This document shows positions 14,085 through 55,920 of a stretch of DNA of 64,000 nucleotides, piece by piece (the stretch's first letter is position 1; every line of letters begins with the position of its first letter). This stretch comes from Henningerozyma blattae CBS 6284. Taxonomy: Eukaryota; Ascomycota; Saccharomycetes; Saccharomycetales; Saccharomycetaceae. Both the position numbers and the translations under genes were made by a program. The notes beneath the pieces were generated by a model, which worked only from the letters and a program-made list of their open reading frames with translations, had not been told where the DNA came from and did not search any database. The stretch is from NCBI RefSeq assembly GCF_000315915.1, contig NC_020187.1:434001-498000 (forward strand), written 5' to 3'.

Positions 14085-17000
14085 TTATGTGTTATTACCA
14101 CAATCATTACTCTCATTATCATTATTTGGAATGCTATTATCATTACTAGGACCTACCCATTCCCAACATTTCATTATTTCACCATGAACTTCATTCAAAC
14201 TACTATTTATATTAGTATTCCCATATTCCACTTTGTCTGATATTCTTTTCCATAAGATATTCTTTTTCTGAATATTGTTCACATCGCTTAAATAAACATC
14301 TCTTAACTGTACCGAACTTAAATAGGGTGGAGTATTCGGATGCAATTGTTCCATTTTCTTCTTCTTTAAACTAGCAATTATATCCGTTGCAATATCGTTG
14401 ATCCTATTTTGCTCTTGAATTGTCCATTTAACTTTTAGATGAAGAATCTTTCCAATTATTACCAGAATGCTACTCGTCCAAATTACAAGTCGATATTTGA
14501 TGTATTTTTGAAATACTTCTCTTTCAAATCTACATTTAATGCCGATATATTTCTTGGATATTGAGCGAATAACCGTGTTTTCTGGTGACCCTGGTTCTTG
14601 TGAAATACATCCTTTTTGTTTTTGAAACCCATTGGCTTGATGCTTGTTCTTGTATGATTTTTGGGATATCTCATTGGCGGATAGCTATAAAGAAAATAAT
14701 ATATGATTATTGTTAGTAAATTAACTTTAAAAATTAGTAAGAAAAAAAAAAATAGGTTACTCACTTGCCTCCATAATATGTCCTTTTGATCTTTCAAGTG
14801 TTTAACAACTTGAGACCAAATTTCTTCAAAATTGGAATCATCTATCCACGCTGGGCGTGCTTCATTGAATATGTTATATAAATCTTGGGAACTAACACCG
14901 CTTTTCAAATCATCAGTACCTTCTCCACAAGAGACAGCTGAATTTTTAGCTCTTAGAAATTCTAATGATTTTTTAACAATTTCGTTTACGATTTTTTCTC
15001 TTTTGTTATCTCTCACGCAGGAATCAGGCAAAGGTAGAGATCCAAAGAGATTAAAAATGTTTTTTCTAATTATATGGTCTGGTTTGCATTTCATTTGCAT
15101 CATTGGATAACAAATTGCATTGTTTGGACATGGAATACATTCTGGCTTATGATCTTCTAACCAGTTATCAATTTTGGATACAACTGGTAAAGTATTGACA
15201 TTATCTGGTAAATATTCAGAGACTGATTTAATAGGTAGTTGATTATCACAATAGCCAACATACATTTTTTGATCACGGTAAATACAAAAACATAAGATCA
15301 TCGGTAATAATAATAAAATTAAAGCAACCAGTTTTAAAAACAATATTAATTTCCGTGTGTCTGACTGTTTTTTATTTTTAATGTCAGATTCAGTAAGCTT
15401 ATCATTATGTACGTTAAAATCATCTATCTTACTGGCTTCAGTAGGCTCTTTAGTAAATTGGGTACTGTTTGATTCATCATCAATATAATCTTCATATATT
15501 CTATCCAAAGTTTGTAAATTCTTAGAGTTAATCATCTCGTCTTCTTTAACATTTGAAGATAAGGTAGTAACCTGCTCATTTTCTGGCTTAGATAGTTGAT
15601 CGTCTTCTGATGATTCTTCTGATAATCCATTACTAATGATAATTGTTTGAGTCTTCGGGTTAATTGCATTAATAGTATTTGGCTGGATTTGATTGGAAAG
15701 ATAGTCATTGTTTTCTTCAATAGCAGTAACAAGTTGATTAGCAAATTCAGGTGAAACATTCAAATTAGCTAAATCAGGAGCCAATCTTTTCTTAAAAGGT
15801 GATAATTTCTTCAAATTTGAATTTTTTGCTAATGGTGAACATAATTTGGGAGTTAAGATCATTTTTGGATCTGATCCTATCTTATTTTCCTCAAGTGTAG
15901 TCACATTCACATCATTTCCATAAATAAATGAATTAGAACTCATTGATGAATCTGATACGTCCATATCAAAATTTTCCATTACAATGGAATTTTCATTTGG
16001 CTTTGTTGGACTCTTTGTAGAGAGTTTTTCTTCTATTAAGCTAGTGGATTTATCTATTTTCCTTTTTTTAGTGGAATTGTTTAATGAAGAATTTTCCTTT
16101 AGAGAATGATCTGATTGAGAATCATCCCTAGGCCTTTTTGAAATATTATTGTCGGATAGATTTTTTGGTATCTGAATATCTATAGCATTTGGTAATTTAA
16201 GAGAATTAGGCTGAATAGATGCTGTTTGTTCCATAGCTGAAAGCTGAGGATTTGTAATGGGCTGAGCATTAGAAATTGTGGAAGTTTCAGTGGTAGAATT
16301 TGTTTGTGGTATTGATACTTTTTTAATCGATAATTTAGTTGTTTTCTTAATCGGAGTGGTTGTTTGAGTAGTATTAGAATAAATTTCAGCTGGGCTAGAT
16401 TTCGAATAAATTTCAGTGGTCTTCTCATAAATCGATGATACGGATTCTTTTGGATTTTCCACTGTATTGGCATCACGCTTATTCATATGATTATCAGCTT
16501 GTTCTGTATTTTTAACTGCATTTTGTAAATCAGCATTTGGGTGTAGTTTTTCTAAGTCCTTTGGTTTATTACTTGAATTAGCAGTTGATGGCACATCTGG
16601 ATATATGCAAGTTTTATTTTTCTTTGTACAATTATTACAATCCGGTTTTGTTCTATCACAGCCTATTTTACTTTTACGACATGTCAAACAAGCTCTTGGT
16701 TTTTTATTCAATTTGGTAAATGTGAGTTGATCAGACGATGTTTTTTCTTTATCACGTTCATTCGAATTAACCTGTTTTTCAACGTTTGCCTTGGTATTAG
16801 GTTTATCTTGTTTATCGTCTTGATTCTTTTCCTGAACTTCTTCTTGAATGTCATCCATATCTTCATCTGAATCCTCTTCTATCTCTTCGTGAATATCATC
16901 ATTATCAACCTCCATATCATCTTGCATGTCTATATCATCTTTACTCACTTGGCTGTTCTGATCCTGTTGGATATCTTTACTCTCTCTATTATCATCAAAG

Positions 17001-17611
17001 CTACGAGTTTCTATTTCCATATCTTTTATCTCAACTTCATCATCGTCCATATTTATTTCCTCCAAAGCATTTCCCCCAATTATACTCTCATCACCATCTT
17101 GTATTTCTTCCTTTTCAGATAAATCTTGGTCTATATCAGAAGAAGCATAATCACTATCCAATATAATAATATCATCTAAAGCAGATGATTGCTTGCTATT
17201 TTTATTTGATAGCTCTGAAAAGCTTTCTTCTTTCAACTGCACATCTGTATCTTTTTCTTCTATATTGGTATCTTGCTCTTTTGTATTGGTATCTACGGCC
17301 TCGATATTTGAACCTGTTCTAGGTTCATTCACATCGGTATCCGATATGTTTGAATCATAATCTTTACTATCAGTAGCCATTCTTAAATCTTGTTCTATCT
17401 TTTCTTGTTGTAACTGGTCTAATCTTGAATTATACTCTGCTCTCAACAAAGGTACCAACGGTTGAAACTCTATCTTATAAGTGTTTAACAGAGTCTGTTT
17501 CTTATTTGTCTTGGGATAAAAGACTTTATGTTCGTCCAAAATACGTTTGATCTGTTTAACTGTTAATGAGCTGGGGTCGAACCCATCTTCTAAATACTCC
17601 AACGAATCCAT
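14085..17611 (-). CDS. SRC1: Src1/Heh1 inner nuclear membrane (LEM/MAN1-type) protein, two exons, alternatively spliced, with a Zn2Cys6 domain
   Basis: Exon 1 runs from 17611 down to 14765 and exon 2 from 14684 to 14085, joining to 1148 residues (834 in S. cerevisiae). The start MDSLEYLEDGFDPSSL is the conserved HeH/SAP-like DNA-binding head; the frame is open further upstream but the homology begins here. Next come an acidic region, a Zn2Cys6 cluster (Cys308 to Cys335), a basic bipartite NLS-like stretch (KRPR...KKRK), TM1 (LILFLKLVALILLLLPMIL), the luminal MAN1-type domain (ECIPCPNNAICYP), TM2 (IWTSSILVIIGKILHL) and the MSC domain ending (HGEIMKCWEWVGP). Src1 tethers telomeres, rDNA and nuclear pores at the inner nuclear membrane. 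The overlapping donor GCAAGTGAGT allows a second splice form that ends at 14483 (1014 residues). Neighbours RAD52 and AMD1 match YML032-035. Confidence 0.93.
14685..14764 (-). other. SRC1 intron with overlapping alternative 5' splice sites
   Basis: Read on the minus strand, exon 1 ends TGGAGGCAA and the intron starts GTGAGT (80 nt, phase 0, joins to the conserved C-terminus). A GC donor, GCAAGT, begins four bases earlier at 14768 (84 nt) and shifts the frame to the short form. A perfect TACTAAC branch point is at 14712-14718, and the acceptor TTTATAG ends at 14685. The same GCAAGTGAGT double donor is known in S. cerevisiae SRC1. Confidence 0.9.
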
Positions 17612-52965: not shown

Positions 52966-55920
52966 ATGGATACTCCAATATCATTCCCACCTATCAAACG
53001 ACGCGCCCGATTGACGGTTGTTTGTACGAATTGCAAGAAACGCAAGAGTAAATGTGATCGAGCCAAACCATGTAGTCATTGTATTCGATTAGGAATCGCC
53101 AATGAATGCACTTATTTAAATGCAGTGACACCAAGAAGAAAGCATGGTGGTAATGGTGGTGGAAATGGCAACAATAGCGGCGTGACTAATAGTAATAGTG
53201 GGATCACGTTTGGCGGAACAGAAATGAATAATTTCCTCAAGATTATACCGAAAGAAGATTGTACAATTGATAATGAAGTAGTTGGAAGTGGCGGTACATT
53301 GGATATGGGGACAATCAATGAAGAACCTTTGCCACCTACCAATTCATATATTCCCCCACCTTTAAATGAGACTCCCTTGAATGAAACTCCGATGAATGAA
53401 GTTCCAGAGGTATCATATAAGGCCACCGTTCGAAGTCCTAGTGTATTTTCCAATCATCCAATAACATTCACCCCAATGGATTGCAGCATGACGACTCTGG
53501 AAGAGAATGTTGTGACAGAGAGTGTGTTACCCACAGCGAATCATCATGAAGTCGATGAAATAATTAACTTGATCCCCAACAAGAGATACGTTACGTTCAA
53601 GAGATCTGCAATCTCACTCGTTTCATTATTTAGCGACACTGCTATTGAACAACGAGACATCTATTTGAAATGTATGATTGCATTTCGAAGCATTGCAATC
53701 AAAATGACAACAAGCAAACTTAAACCCAGTGGCTTAGAATACAACCAGAATTGTCTACCGAAATCGTTTGTTCCCTTGAGTGTGTTTGATGCCGATGGCG
53801 ATCCACTTTCACCAGAGACGTTTGTCAAACAACAGAAATCCATACATAAGAAATTATTGGATAAATTTGGAGAATATCGTAAGAATTCCAATTTCAAGAT
53901 CATAGAAGGTGTGAAATTACCTGGAGTGCATTTACCCAGCAAATATTTATTTATGAATGAGATATTGCCTATTTTCGAAAAACATGTTTATAATATGGTC
54001 CCAATTTTCAACTTGCATGCATTACGTTGGGATATTGTTAAATTCTATGAAGGATTGGAGAAAAATGGTGGCGAGATGAGCTTGAAACAATTTGATCATC
54101 TTGTGTATTGCGTGGTGTTGTTGATTTGTAAATTATCACAACTATCGATTCATTTTTGTAAAAGCAATGAAGCCAATGTCCAATCGAGAATCTTACAATT
54201 GGATTCGTCGAAATATATTGCCATTGTGAACCATTATCTCTCTGATTTGAAAATGTTACGGAAATGTACGTTGATTCAATTACAAACGATGATCCTGTTG
54301 CGATTCTATTATTGGTGTGCCCCAGAAGATGGAGACGGGGCAGAGCTTCAACAATCTCAAATCCTGATGGGGGCGATCATAGCGTCGTGCAGAGAGATTG
54401 GTGCGTCATGGGGGGTGTTGATAGACCGTGAGAATTATTATTTGAAAATACAACATCAAGTGAGACCACCGCTGAGTATAATGAACCAAGGAGATTATAT
54501 GCGGTTGTTTCAGAAAATATGGAGTTTCGTGCTATTTTGGGACCGTAAGATGTTTCTAATCAACGGACAAGAATGTGGAGTGGAGAAATCGTTTGTCTAC
54601 AACTATGAACGGTATGTTCGACAAGATGAAGAGAATAATCGGGTGTCATGGTATGAAAAAATGGTCAATATAGATTTACTGATGATGAAGATGAATGATT
54701 CGATCCATGACATGCCATCACGAGTGAATGTGAGACAAGTGCAAGGGTATTTGAAAAAACTGAATTCGCAATTCCAATTCTTGTCTATGAAATGGAACCA
54801 TGAGACACATTTGAACCTAGAGTTCCAATTGATGTTGGGATTGTTCAACGTATCGTTATTACATTGCCAAATGGTCCATTATGAGACAAGTGTCCATACC
54901 GTATGCTATTACGACTCATCACAAAAACTATGGGACGAACTTGTCTCGCTGTCATCCCTATGCTATGATTATTTCTACGGGGAAGGGAAACGCTTCCTCA
55001 ACCCGTACACCCGCTTCTACACTAACAAAATCATCGGCATAGTCTCTGATAAAGTATGTGTTCTCTTGCCCACATTCATTCTCCGATCGAATCTGATCAT
55101 GGAGCCGACGCGCCAAGAACAAGAATATTCCAGACGACAAGCAATGATCCAGTTCCTATACAACGTGTCGTCCATGTATTTCAACGAACTGGGCTCCGAC
55201 TATTACCGCTGTTTCAAGAAAATGTTTACAGCCAAGATCAGCTACAAGATCTTGAACCGGCCAAGTTCCCGCAACACATGGGCCACCATCTTGGAATTTC
55301 TTGTATATGAGATAGAGACCTCCGATGATAAAATCATATACAAGAGCGAAGGTGCTCGCTTGAGTGTGAAACTACCTGAAATAAGACAACTGGTTGAAGC
55401 AATAGCATCTCATAGAGCAAGAGGAAATGTTGCAGTCGATCCAGTATATCTATGGAAACATGAACTTGTTAAGAGGGGAGATGTATTGGATGATTGTGTC
55501 ATAGATATCCATGAACGCGAATTGCAAGAGTTATTTGCAGAACAGCCGCGCCACTTGCGGCACGGCAACATGTTTTCGCGTTTCTACGATTACACCAGTG
55601 GACAATTGGCCAAATCGATCGATGCGATCGGCGTTGCCAGCGGAACGGCGGAGACACAGACAGAGGCGCAGACGCTGCCAACGGAGTCTGAAATGCAGGG
55701 GCGATTCCAGGCAGAAGCGGAAGCGGAGGCGGGCGTGCAGGCAGACGGGCAGACAGACGGGCATACAGACGGGCATACAGGCCAGGCAGAGTCCTCTTCG
55801 CATGCTGTGCCTGGACAGGCTCAACAGGGTCAGCCTGCAAACCAACAGGCTTCTCCCTTTGACAGTCTGGAGCTGTTGCAGGATATGTTCGAGCCGTTGG
55901 ACTTTCTGTCGTTTTTCTAG
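52966..55920 (+). CDS. OAF3: Oaf3-type Zn2Cys6 transcription factor
   Basis: The protein has 984 residues. The binuclear zinc cluster is at residues 20-48 (Cys20, 23, 30, 36, 39, 48) within RLTVVCTNCKKRKSKCDRAKPC. A Gly/Asn-rich linker follows, and a fungal-specific middle homology region spans about residues 320-780 (YLFMNEILPIFEKHVYNMVPIFN, LLRFYYWCAPEDGDG). The last 100 residues are of a different style: Gln/Glu/Ala-rich with QTDGHTDGHTG repeats, encoded by noticeably GC-richer DNA. Oaf3 is a negative regulator in the oleate response of S. cerevisiae (863 residues). Position beside LAS1 (YKR063C-YKR064W) supports the name. Confidence 0.9.
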   Translation: MDTPISFPPIKRRARLTVVCTNCKKRKSKCDRAKPCSHCIRLGIANECTYLNAVTPRRKHGGNGGGNGNNSGVTNSNSGITFGGTEMNNFLKIIPKEDCTIDNEVVGSGGTLDMGTINEEPLPPTNSYIPPPLNETPLNETPMNEVPEVSYKATVRSPSVFSNHPITFTPMDCSMTTLEENVVTESVLPTANHHEVDEIINLIPNKRYVTFKRSAISLVSLFSDTAIEQRDIYLKCMIAFRSIAIKMTTSKLKPSGLEYNQNCLPKSFVPLSVFDADGDPLSPETFVKQQKSIHKKLLDKFGEYRKNSNFKIIEGVKLPGVHLPSKYLFMNEILPIFEKHVYNMVPIFNLHALRWDIVKFYEGLEKNGGEMSLKQFDHLVYCVVLLICKLSQLSIHFCKSNEANVQSRILQLDSSKYIAIVNHYLSDLKMLRKCTLIQLQTMILLRFYYWCAPEDGDGAELQQSQILMGAIIASCREIGASWGVLIDRENYYLKIQHQVRPPLSIMNQGDYMRLFQKIWSFVLFWDRKMFLINGQECGVEKSFVYNYERYVRQDEENNRVSWYEKMVNIDLLMMKMNDSIHDMPSRVNVRQVQGYLKKLNSQFQFLSMKWNHETHLNLEFQLMLGLFNVSLLHCQMVHYETSVHTVCYYDSSQKLWDELVSLSSLCYDYFYGEGKRFLNPYTRFYTNKIIGIVSDKVCVLLPTFILRSNLIMEPTRQEQEYSRRQAMIQFLYNVSSMYFNELGSDYYRCFKKMFTAKISYKILNRPSSRNTWATILEFLVYEIETSDDKIIYKSEGARLSVKLPEIRQLVEAIASHRARGNVAVDPVYLWKHELVKRGDVLDDCVIDIHERELQELFAEQPRHLRHGNMFSRFYDYTSGQLAKSIDAIGVASGTAETQTEAQTLPTESEMQGRFQAEAEAEAGVQADGQTDGHTDGHTGQAESSSHAVPGQAQQGQPANQQASPFDSLELLQDMFEPLDFLSFF

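Follow-up and report, generated by a model that had tools for sequence, protein, structure and literature searches.

A zinc cluster of the Rsc3/Rsc30 type in the inner nuclear membrane protein Src1/Heh1 of Tetrapisispora blattae: a candidate DNA-reading membrane tether

Introduction

In Saccharomyces cerevisiae the inner nuclear membrane protein Heh1 (Src1) tethers rDNA indirectly, by means of Nur1 and cohibin, and a perinuclear tether built with the Gal4 DNA-binding domain (a fusion to Heh1, judging by the context), used there as a control, left growth unaffected (PMC8363623; statements from the literature refer here and below to excerpts of the sources cited). For Src1 and Heh2, targeting to the inner nuclear membrane uses a nuclear localization signal (NLS) and a linker, and sorting of Heh2 reporters requires both elements (PMC4695851). 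Tandem overlapping 5' splice sites in the S. cerevisiae SRC1 gene lead to two products, Src1-L and Src1-S (PMC8431670). The zinc clusters of Rsc3 and Rsc30 bind CGCG, a motif located preferentially at promoters (PMC6959994), and depletion of Rsc3 affects only a subset of promoters (2025, PMC12541377).

How LEM-type proteins of the inner nuclear membrane choose the chromatin that they hold is the question touched by the present analysis, which is centered on the SRC1/HEH1 gene of the yeast Tetrapisispora (Henningerozyma) blattae CBS 6284 (genome of 14.04 Mb, 10 contigs). The zinc-cluster label on this protein was known before, as the UniRef name of the public record TBLA_0C01910 starts with 'Zn(2)-C6 fungal-type'. 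In the open-licence literature no report on the zinc cluster of T. blattae Src1 was found, nor one on a Heh1 with a zinc cluster or on a zinc-cluster factor with a membrane anchor at the nuclear envelope, and none of the matches listed joined Zn2Cys6 with the inner nuclear membrane and a LEM domain. The excerpt of PMC3597508 treats SRC1 as an S. cerevisiae gene and discusses T. blattae for PTC7, while the match for T. blattae zinc clusters concerns HAP1 and that for Henningerozyma blattae concerns centromeres, as far as the matched excerpts go.

The SRC1 locus of T. blattae and the domain layout of its product

Positions are those of the window, that is, the whole stretch of 64,000 nucleotides that was analyzed. 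The features of the locus are the following.

14483..17611, minus strand: SRC1/HEH1 open reading frame; 1042 aa unspliced, 1148 aa when spliced as in the public record TBLA_0C01910
17486..17575, minus strand: HeH/LEM head, residues 13-42 (PF12949, 31.0 bits, cut-off 28.9)
16712..17134, minus strand: acidic stretch by composition (38% Asp+Glu), residues 160-300, part of the expanded arm from HeH to NLS
16595..16696, minus strand: Zn2Cys6 cluster, residues 306-339 (PF00172), with a Rsc3-like block at about residues 303-342
16046..16141, minus strand: putative NLS, residues 491-522 (KRPR...KKRK), whose motif and placement correspond, by eye, to those of the NLS in S. cerevisiae Heh1
15269..15364, minus strand: first transmembrane segment (TM1), residues 750-781, by hydropathy (peak 2.98)
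14756..15313, minus strand: first part of the Man1-Src1 C-terminal domain (MSC), residues 767-952 of the unspliced product (PF09402, 188.1 bits, cut-off 29.7)
14685..14764, minus strand: intron, with 5' sites GCAAGTGAGT at 14759-14768 and TACTAAC at 14712-14718, as judged from the spliced product
14085..14684, minus strand: second exon, encoding TM2 (residues 1014-1034 after splicing) and the remaining MSC, by hydropathy and Pfam

The protein has the features of the Src1/Heh1 family, with HeH and MSC over their cut-offs and two transmembrane segments by hydropathy, TM2 being the weaker one (peak 1.68 vs 2.98). TBLA_0C01910, spliced at the 3' intron, contains the same three Pfam domains, zinc cluster included, and its MSC scores 332.6 bits; the last three residues of the MSC match in the unspliced product are intronic. 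The surrounding genes are AMD1-, RAD52- and NDC1-like according to Pfam, an arrangement that we take to be the gene order of S. cerevisiae as well.

The intron retains overlapping 5' splice sites, as known from S. cerevisiae SRC1. Use of the upstream site gives a predicted isoform with one transmembrane segment (1014 aa, stop at 14483), comparable to Src1-S of S. cerevisiae. The cluster lies in exon 1 and would be present in both predicted splice products.

Assignment of the cluster to the Rsc3/Rsc30 type

The Zn2Cys6 family has the spacing C-x2-C-x6-C-x5-12-C-x2-C-x6-8-C and a fold in which a pair of short helices packs about two zinc ions. A sequence-only reading of this DNA had pointed to residues 308-335 of Src1, CLTCRKSKIGCDRTKPDCNNCTKKNKTC, with the spacing C-2-C-6-C-6-C-2-C-6-C and IYPD after it; this stretch was recovered exact to the base (window 16690-16607), its six cysteines are residues 308, 311, 318, 325, 328 and 335 (window 16607-16690), and their spacing fits the family pattern. 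In the domain search that had been suggested as a check, PF00172 matched residues 306-339 with 32.4 bits (cut-off 21, E 1e-07), which is far beyond chance. With PF00172, HeH and MSC all over cut-off in one protein, the earlier claim of a true Gal4-class cluster within a true Src1/Heh1 holds. No fungal transcription-factor middle region scored in Src1 with Pfam. A single-sequence AlphaFold2 model of 58 residues, made with no alignment, was of low confidence (pLDDT 65.6) and contained no helix of four residues or more, where the helices of the fold were expected.

Lysines 17 and 18 of Gal4 are DNA-contact positions. The Src1 cluster has Lys at the position of K18, as in 37 of the 60 clusters compared, and Ser at that of K17, where Rsc3 has Arg. 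This Ser, found there in six of the 60 clusters, is compatible with binding but may alter the specificity.

Among solved structures, S. cerevisiae Rsc3 was the best match to Src1 (E 5.8e-12, 47.8 bits) and Rsc30 the next (40.5 bits), whereas Hap1 and Lac9 matched the cluster with 24.0 bits at most. The T. blattae genome has at least 59 PF00172 matches; all 59 were extracted and 58 fit the Cys pattern, the exception (L056; contig C7 of genome G000, 609764-609910) falling outside the spacing range and being left out of scoring and tree. When aligned to the Src1 cluster, the two RSC3/30 genes scored 145 and 138 and the next cluster 113 (57 other clusters, among the matches listed). The proteins of these two genes (L071 and L072) are identified as RSC3/RSC30 by their best solved match, Rsc3 at 3.2e-129 and 2.2e-69, respectively. 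A second Zn2Cys6 protein, of 984 aa, is encoded in the window at 52966-55920 (plus strand), with a cluster in its N-terminal region (35.9 bits) and a gene for myo-inositol-1-phosphate synthase adjoining it.

A FastTree analysis with 150 bootstraps was carried out on an alignment of 60 sequences and 42 columns, made up of 58 clusters from T. blattae and two from S. cerevisiae. Src1 and the four Rsc3/30 clusters formed a clade in 124 of the 150 bootstraps, and the nearest neighbor of Src1 was one of these four in 138. The signatures GCDR and YP[DN]xP are confined to the same five sequences out of 60. Since the four Rsc3/30 clusters without Src1 form a clade of their own (132/150), Src1 branches outside them. 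The cluster is, by its sequence, of the Rsc3/Rsc30 type, known from DNA-reading subunits of the RSC remodeller, and this assignment is new here, beyond the Gal4-type label given earlier. In the solved-structure search no credible similarity to Rsc3 was found outside residues 302-342 or so, the alignment running to residue 453 and being weak there; Src1 is without the large RSC-joining region of Rsc3/30, and the true RSC3/30 genes of this yeast are the two named above.

Occurrence among homologues and placement on the nucleoplasmic arm

Two homologue searches (20 and 44 matches) provided 46 distinct Src1/Heh2 proteins. Those named are from Tetrapisispora phaffii, Naumovozyma, Kazachstania, Maudiozyma, Saccharomyces, Lachancea, Zygosaccharomyces, Kluyveromyces and Eremothecium, with no Vanderwaltozyma and no further Tetrapisispora species among them. 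At E <= 10, HeH and MSC were matched by Pfam in all 46, and PF00172 in T. blattae Src1 only (1/46). PF00172 was thus not matched in the T. phaffii homologue, nor was a cluster found in HEH2 of T. blattae itself (L074, 848 aa), in which HeH and MSC were matched. According to the sequence-only reading, S. cerevisiae Heh1 and Heh2 are without such a cluster. For Heh1 this agrees with the scan, in which neither S. cerevisiae Src1 nor the other 44 homologues matched PF00172; S. cerevisiae Heh2 is not known to have a zinc cluster either. In the part of the protein that ends with TM1, T. blattae Src1 has the six Cys of the cluster and three elsewhere, compared with zero to three in 37 other homologues (8 of the 46, in which the search pattern located no TM1, were excluded from this count, while the Pfam scan took all 46). 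Because the cluster is absent from the homologues scanned and from the organism's own HEH2, its gain is most simply placed in the T. blattae lineage. A search for the Src1 cluster region in other proteins returned only the same protein among five candidates; its strict word filter missed Rsc3 too, so uniqueness is unproven.

The HEH2 gene of T. blattae (L074:2161-4707; contig C5 of G000, about 704.7-707.2 kb) is peculiar in other respects. Its MSC is strongly diverged, and several Cys and motifs that are otherwise conserved are missing from it. Ahead of the usual TM1 there is an additional, long hydrophobic stretch (residues 437-490). These features suggest an altered topology or fold.

The S. 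cerevisiae chain in PDB entry 4xzr comprises Src1 residues 170-223, which we take to be the Heh1 NLS. From the KKRK motif to the best TM1 window there are 239 residues in S. cerevisiae (KKRK at 216) and 240 in T. blattae; given this near identity, the length of the linker is kept and the extra length of the T. blattae protein sits between HeH and NLS. This arm measures about 125 residues in S. cerevisiae vs about 450 in T. blattae, i.e., about 325 extra, and the cluster is located in the lengthened part, after the acidic stretch. With the linker kept and the extra length between HeH and NLS, a flexible arm would be expected to carry the cluster into the nucleoplasm. The acidic stretch itself, 141 residues N-terminal of the cluster, could bind histones or coactivators.

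Proposed role and candidate DNA targets

According to the mechanism proposed, Src1/Heh1 of T. blattae would have gained an Rsc3/Rsc30-type Zn2Cys6 head between HeH and NLS, most simply in its own lineage. Importin-driven sorting would carry the protein to the inner nuclear membrane, the NLS-like motif, the linker and the transmembrane segment having been kept, and the cluster, borne by a long flexible arm, would then face the nucleoplasm and bind DNA of the Rsc3 kind, namely CGCG/CGG-like half-sites. Src1 would thereby have a direct, sequence-selective grip on chromatin, added to the indirect CLIP-cohibin tether. A probability of about 0.62 is assigned to the reading that the captured DNA-reading head makes Src1 a membrane-anchored tether, probably for CGCG/CGG-related sites and on top of CLIP-cohibin, DNA binding and target both being inferred. 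The target specificity is likely related to that of Rsc3 or relaxed with respect to it, because Lys is kept at the position of Gal4 K18 but Ser replaces the Arg of Rsc3. A zinc-cluster head on Heh1 would be tolerated by the cell, given that the perinuclear Gal4 DNA-binding-domain tether left growth unchanged (PMC8363623).

Within the window, CGCG occurs at 0.76/kb outside open reading frames of at least 200 aa (a fraction that takes in genes of less than 200 aa) and at 0.26/kb inside them, with no special enrichment over the control GCGC (0.94 vs 0.31). Long CGCG runs are scarce in the genome, with six CGCGCGCG sites as opposed to two sites of the reversed control, and all six are at least 240 kb away from the contig ends. 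The CGCG counts neither locate targets of Src1 nor support CGCG as the target.

Components of the CLIP-cohibin tether were matched in T. blattae: Csm1 with 83.1 bits, PF10332, presumably the Nur1 family, with 69 bits and, weakly, Lrs4 with 22.5 bits, or 34 with in-frame neighbors (cut-off 24.2). This tether seems to persist in T. blattae. The idea of the zinc cluster as a replacement for a lost CLIP-cohibin tether was dropped in view of these matches, and since they are present, direct DNA binding would be an addition to the old tether.

A further and more tentative proposal, itself rather unlikely, is that Src1 binds promoter elements of Rsc3/Rsc30 through the captured RSC head and positions remodeller-dependent promoters at the envelope, or competes for them, as a membrane-anchored, sequence-specific chromatin tether that evolved naturally. 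If Src1 does have a natural DNA-reading head, its target would be definable and the head removable by Cys mutation, and the effect of sequence-specific anchoring at the envelope on gene position and expression would become addressable. Two chromatin systems would then clearly have a DNA-binding module in common by way of a flexible arm; HEH2 of this lineage is itself strongly diverged in its MSC.

Alternative explanations

The cluster segment might be spliced out of SRC1 or be part of another gene. The frame, however, runs without interruption from the start codon past the cluster and through TM1, and in the signal lists scanned, 5' splice sites occur only at codons 222, 783 and 950 and branch points only at codons 958 (TACTAAT) and 965 (TACTAAC), both of them in the known 3' intron. 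The earlier statement that no neighboring gene model is fused here is upheld by this continuous frame with no listed splice signals flanking the cluster; judged by sequence, the segment appears to be retained in the mature mRNA, and an artefact of annotation or splicing is highly improbable. Neither of the two refuting conditions named in the sequence-only reading, a PF00172 model that fails to score and a segment removed by splicing, is borne out by the sequence. A piece of an RSC3-like gene that inserted into a tolerant arm and has no function would be in keeping with the length-variable arm in which the cluster sits and with its presence in one genome only. Against such a passive relic, the Cys are intact and no stop has arisen in spite of saturated synonymous divergence from both RSC3/30 genes (pS 0.80 and 0.74; pN 0.25 and 0.29), values similar to those between the two RSC3/30 genes themselves (pS 0.78, pN 0.26). 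In a simple neutral-decay simulation with the base composition of the window (20,000 runs per level), six Cys and no stop survived in 1.4%, 0.2% and 0.005% of the runs for 0.2, 0.3 and 0.5 substitutions per site, respectively, and the low Cys numbers of the 37 other homologues likewise speak against a relic. Saturated synonymous change together with limited protein change therefore suggests selective retention as the simplest reading, and a functionless remnant is improbable; with one T. blattae genome compared, identical values would also be expected in the absence of selection if the segment had been inserted recently and came from an unseen RSC3-like gene that had diverged beforehand.

A retained cluster need not read DNA in a sequence-dependent manner. 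It could be a basic patch, that is, a non-specific binder of nucleic acids or a second NLS that aids chromatin contact or import with no choice of sequence, as might be argued from the 26% Lys+Arg of residues 300-345 and the changed residue at the Gal4 K17 position. For a patch, however, six in-register Cys together with GCDR and YPDVP, preserved through saturated synonymous divergence, are unneeded, and a separate NLS-like motif exists at residues 491-522, so that this explanation is unlikely. Slightly less so is action of the folded zinc module by protein contact, in which it would pair with Rsc3/Rsc30 or dock RSC at the nuclear periphery. The Rsc3/Rsc30 type of the Src1 cluster and the reported dimerization of Rsc3 and Rsc30 with each other (PMC6959994) are in its favor, but just about 40 residues are common with Rsc3, with no credible similarity further on, and the cluster is not established as the dimer contact. 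The reading as a DNA-reading tether on a flexible arm is preferred to all of these.

Comparison with known systems

Src1/Heh1 of S. cerevisiae (YML034W; P0016) is like the T. blattae protein in its HeH, its linker of about 240 residues from KKRK to TM1, its MSC and its two transmembrane segments, and unlike it in having no PF00172 match and only two Cys in the region that ends with TM1. Rsc3 and Rsc30 have in common with T. blattae Src1 a Zn2Cys6 cluster of about 40 residues with the GCDR and YP[DN]xP signatures; their cluster, however, is N-terminal in a soluble remodeller subunit, whereas Src1 is membrane-anchored. Gal4-class transcription factors resemble the Src1 cluster in the standard spacing of six Cys and in the Lys at the position of Gal4 K18, but they are soluble, and the T. 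blattae cluster is inside a membrane protein. The CLIP-cohibin system (Heh1-Nur1 with Csm1-Lrs4) uses Heh1 to anchor chromatin at the inner nuclear membrane (PMC8363623), although its grip is indirect, by way of rDNA-bound proteins, with no DNA-reading domain known in the arm of Heh1. The same logic of a zinc cluster on Heh1 is found in the engineered perinuclear tether with the Gal4 DNA-binding domain (PMC8363623; a Heh1 fusion by context), which was a man-made control, whereas the cluster of T. blattae is natural and lies within the arm.
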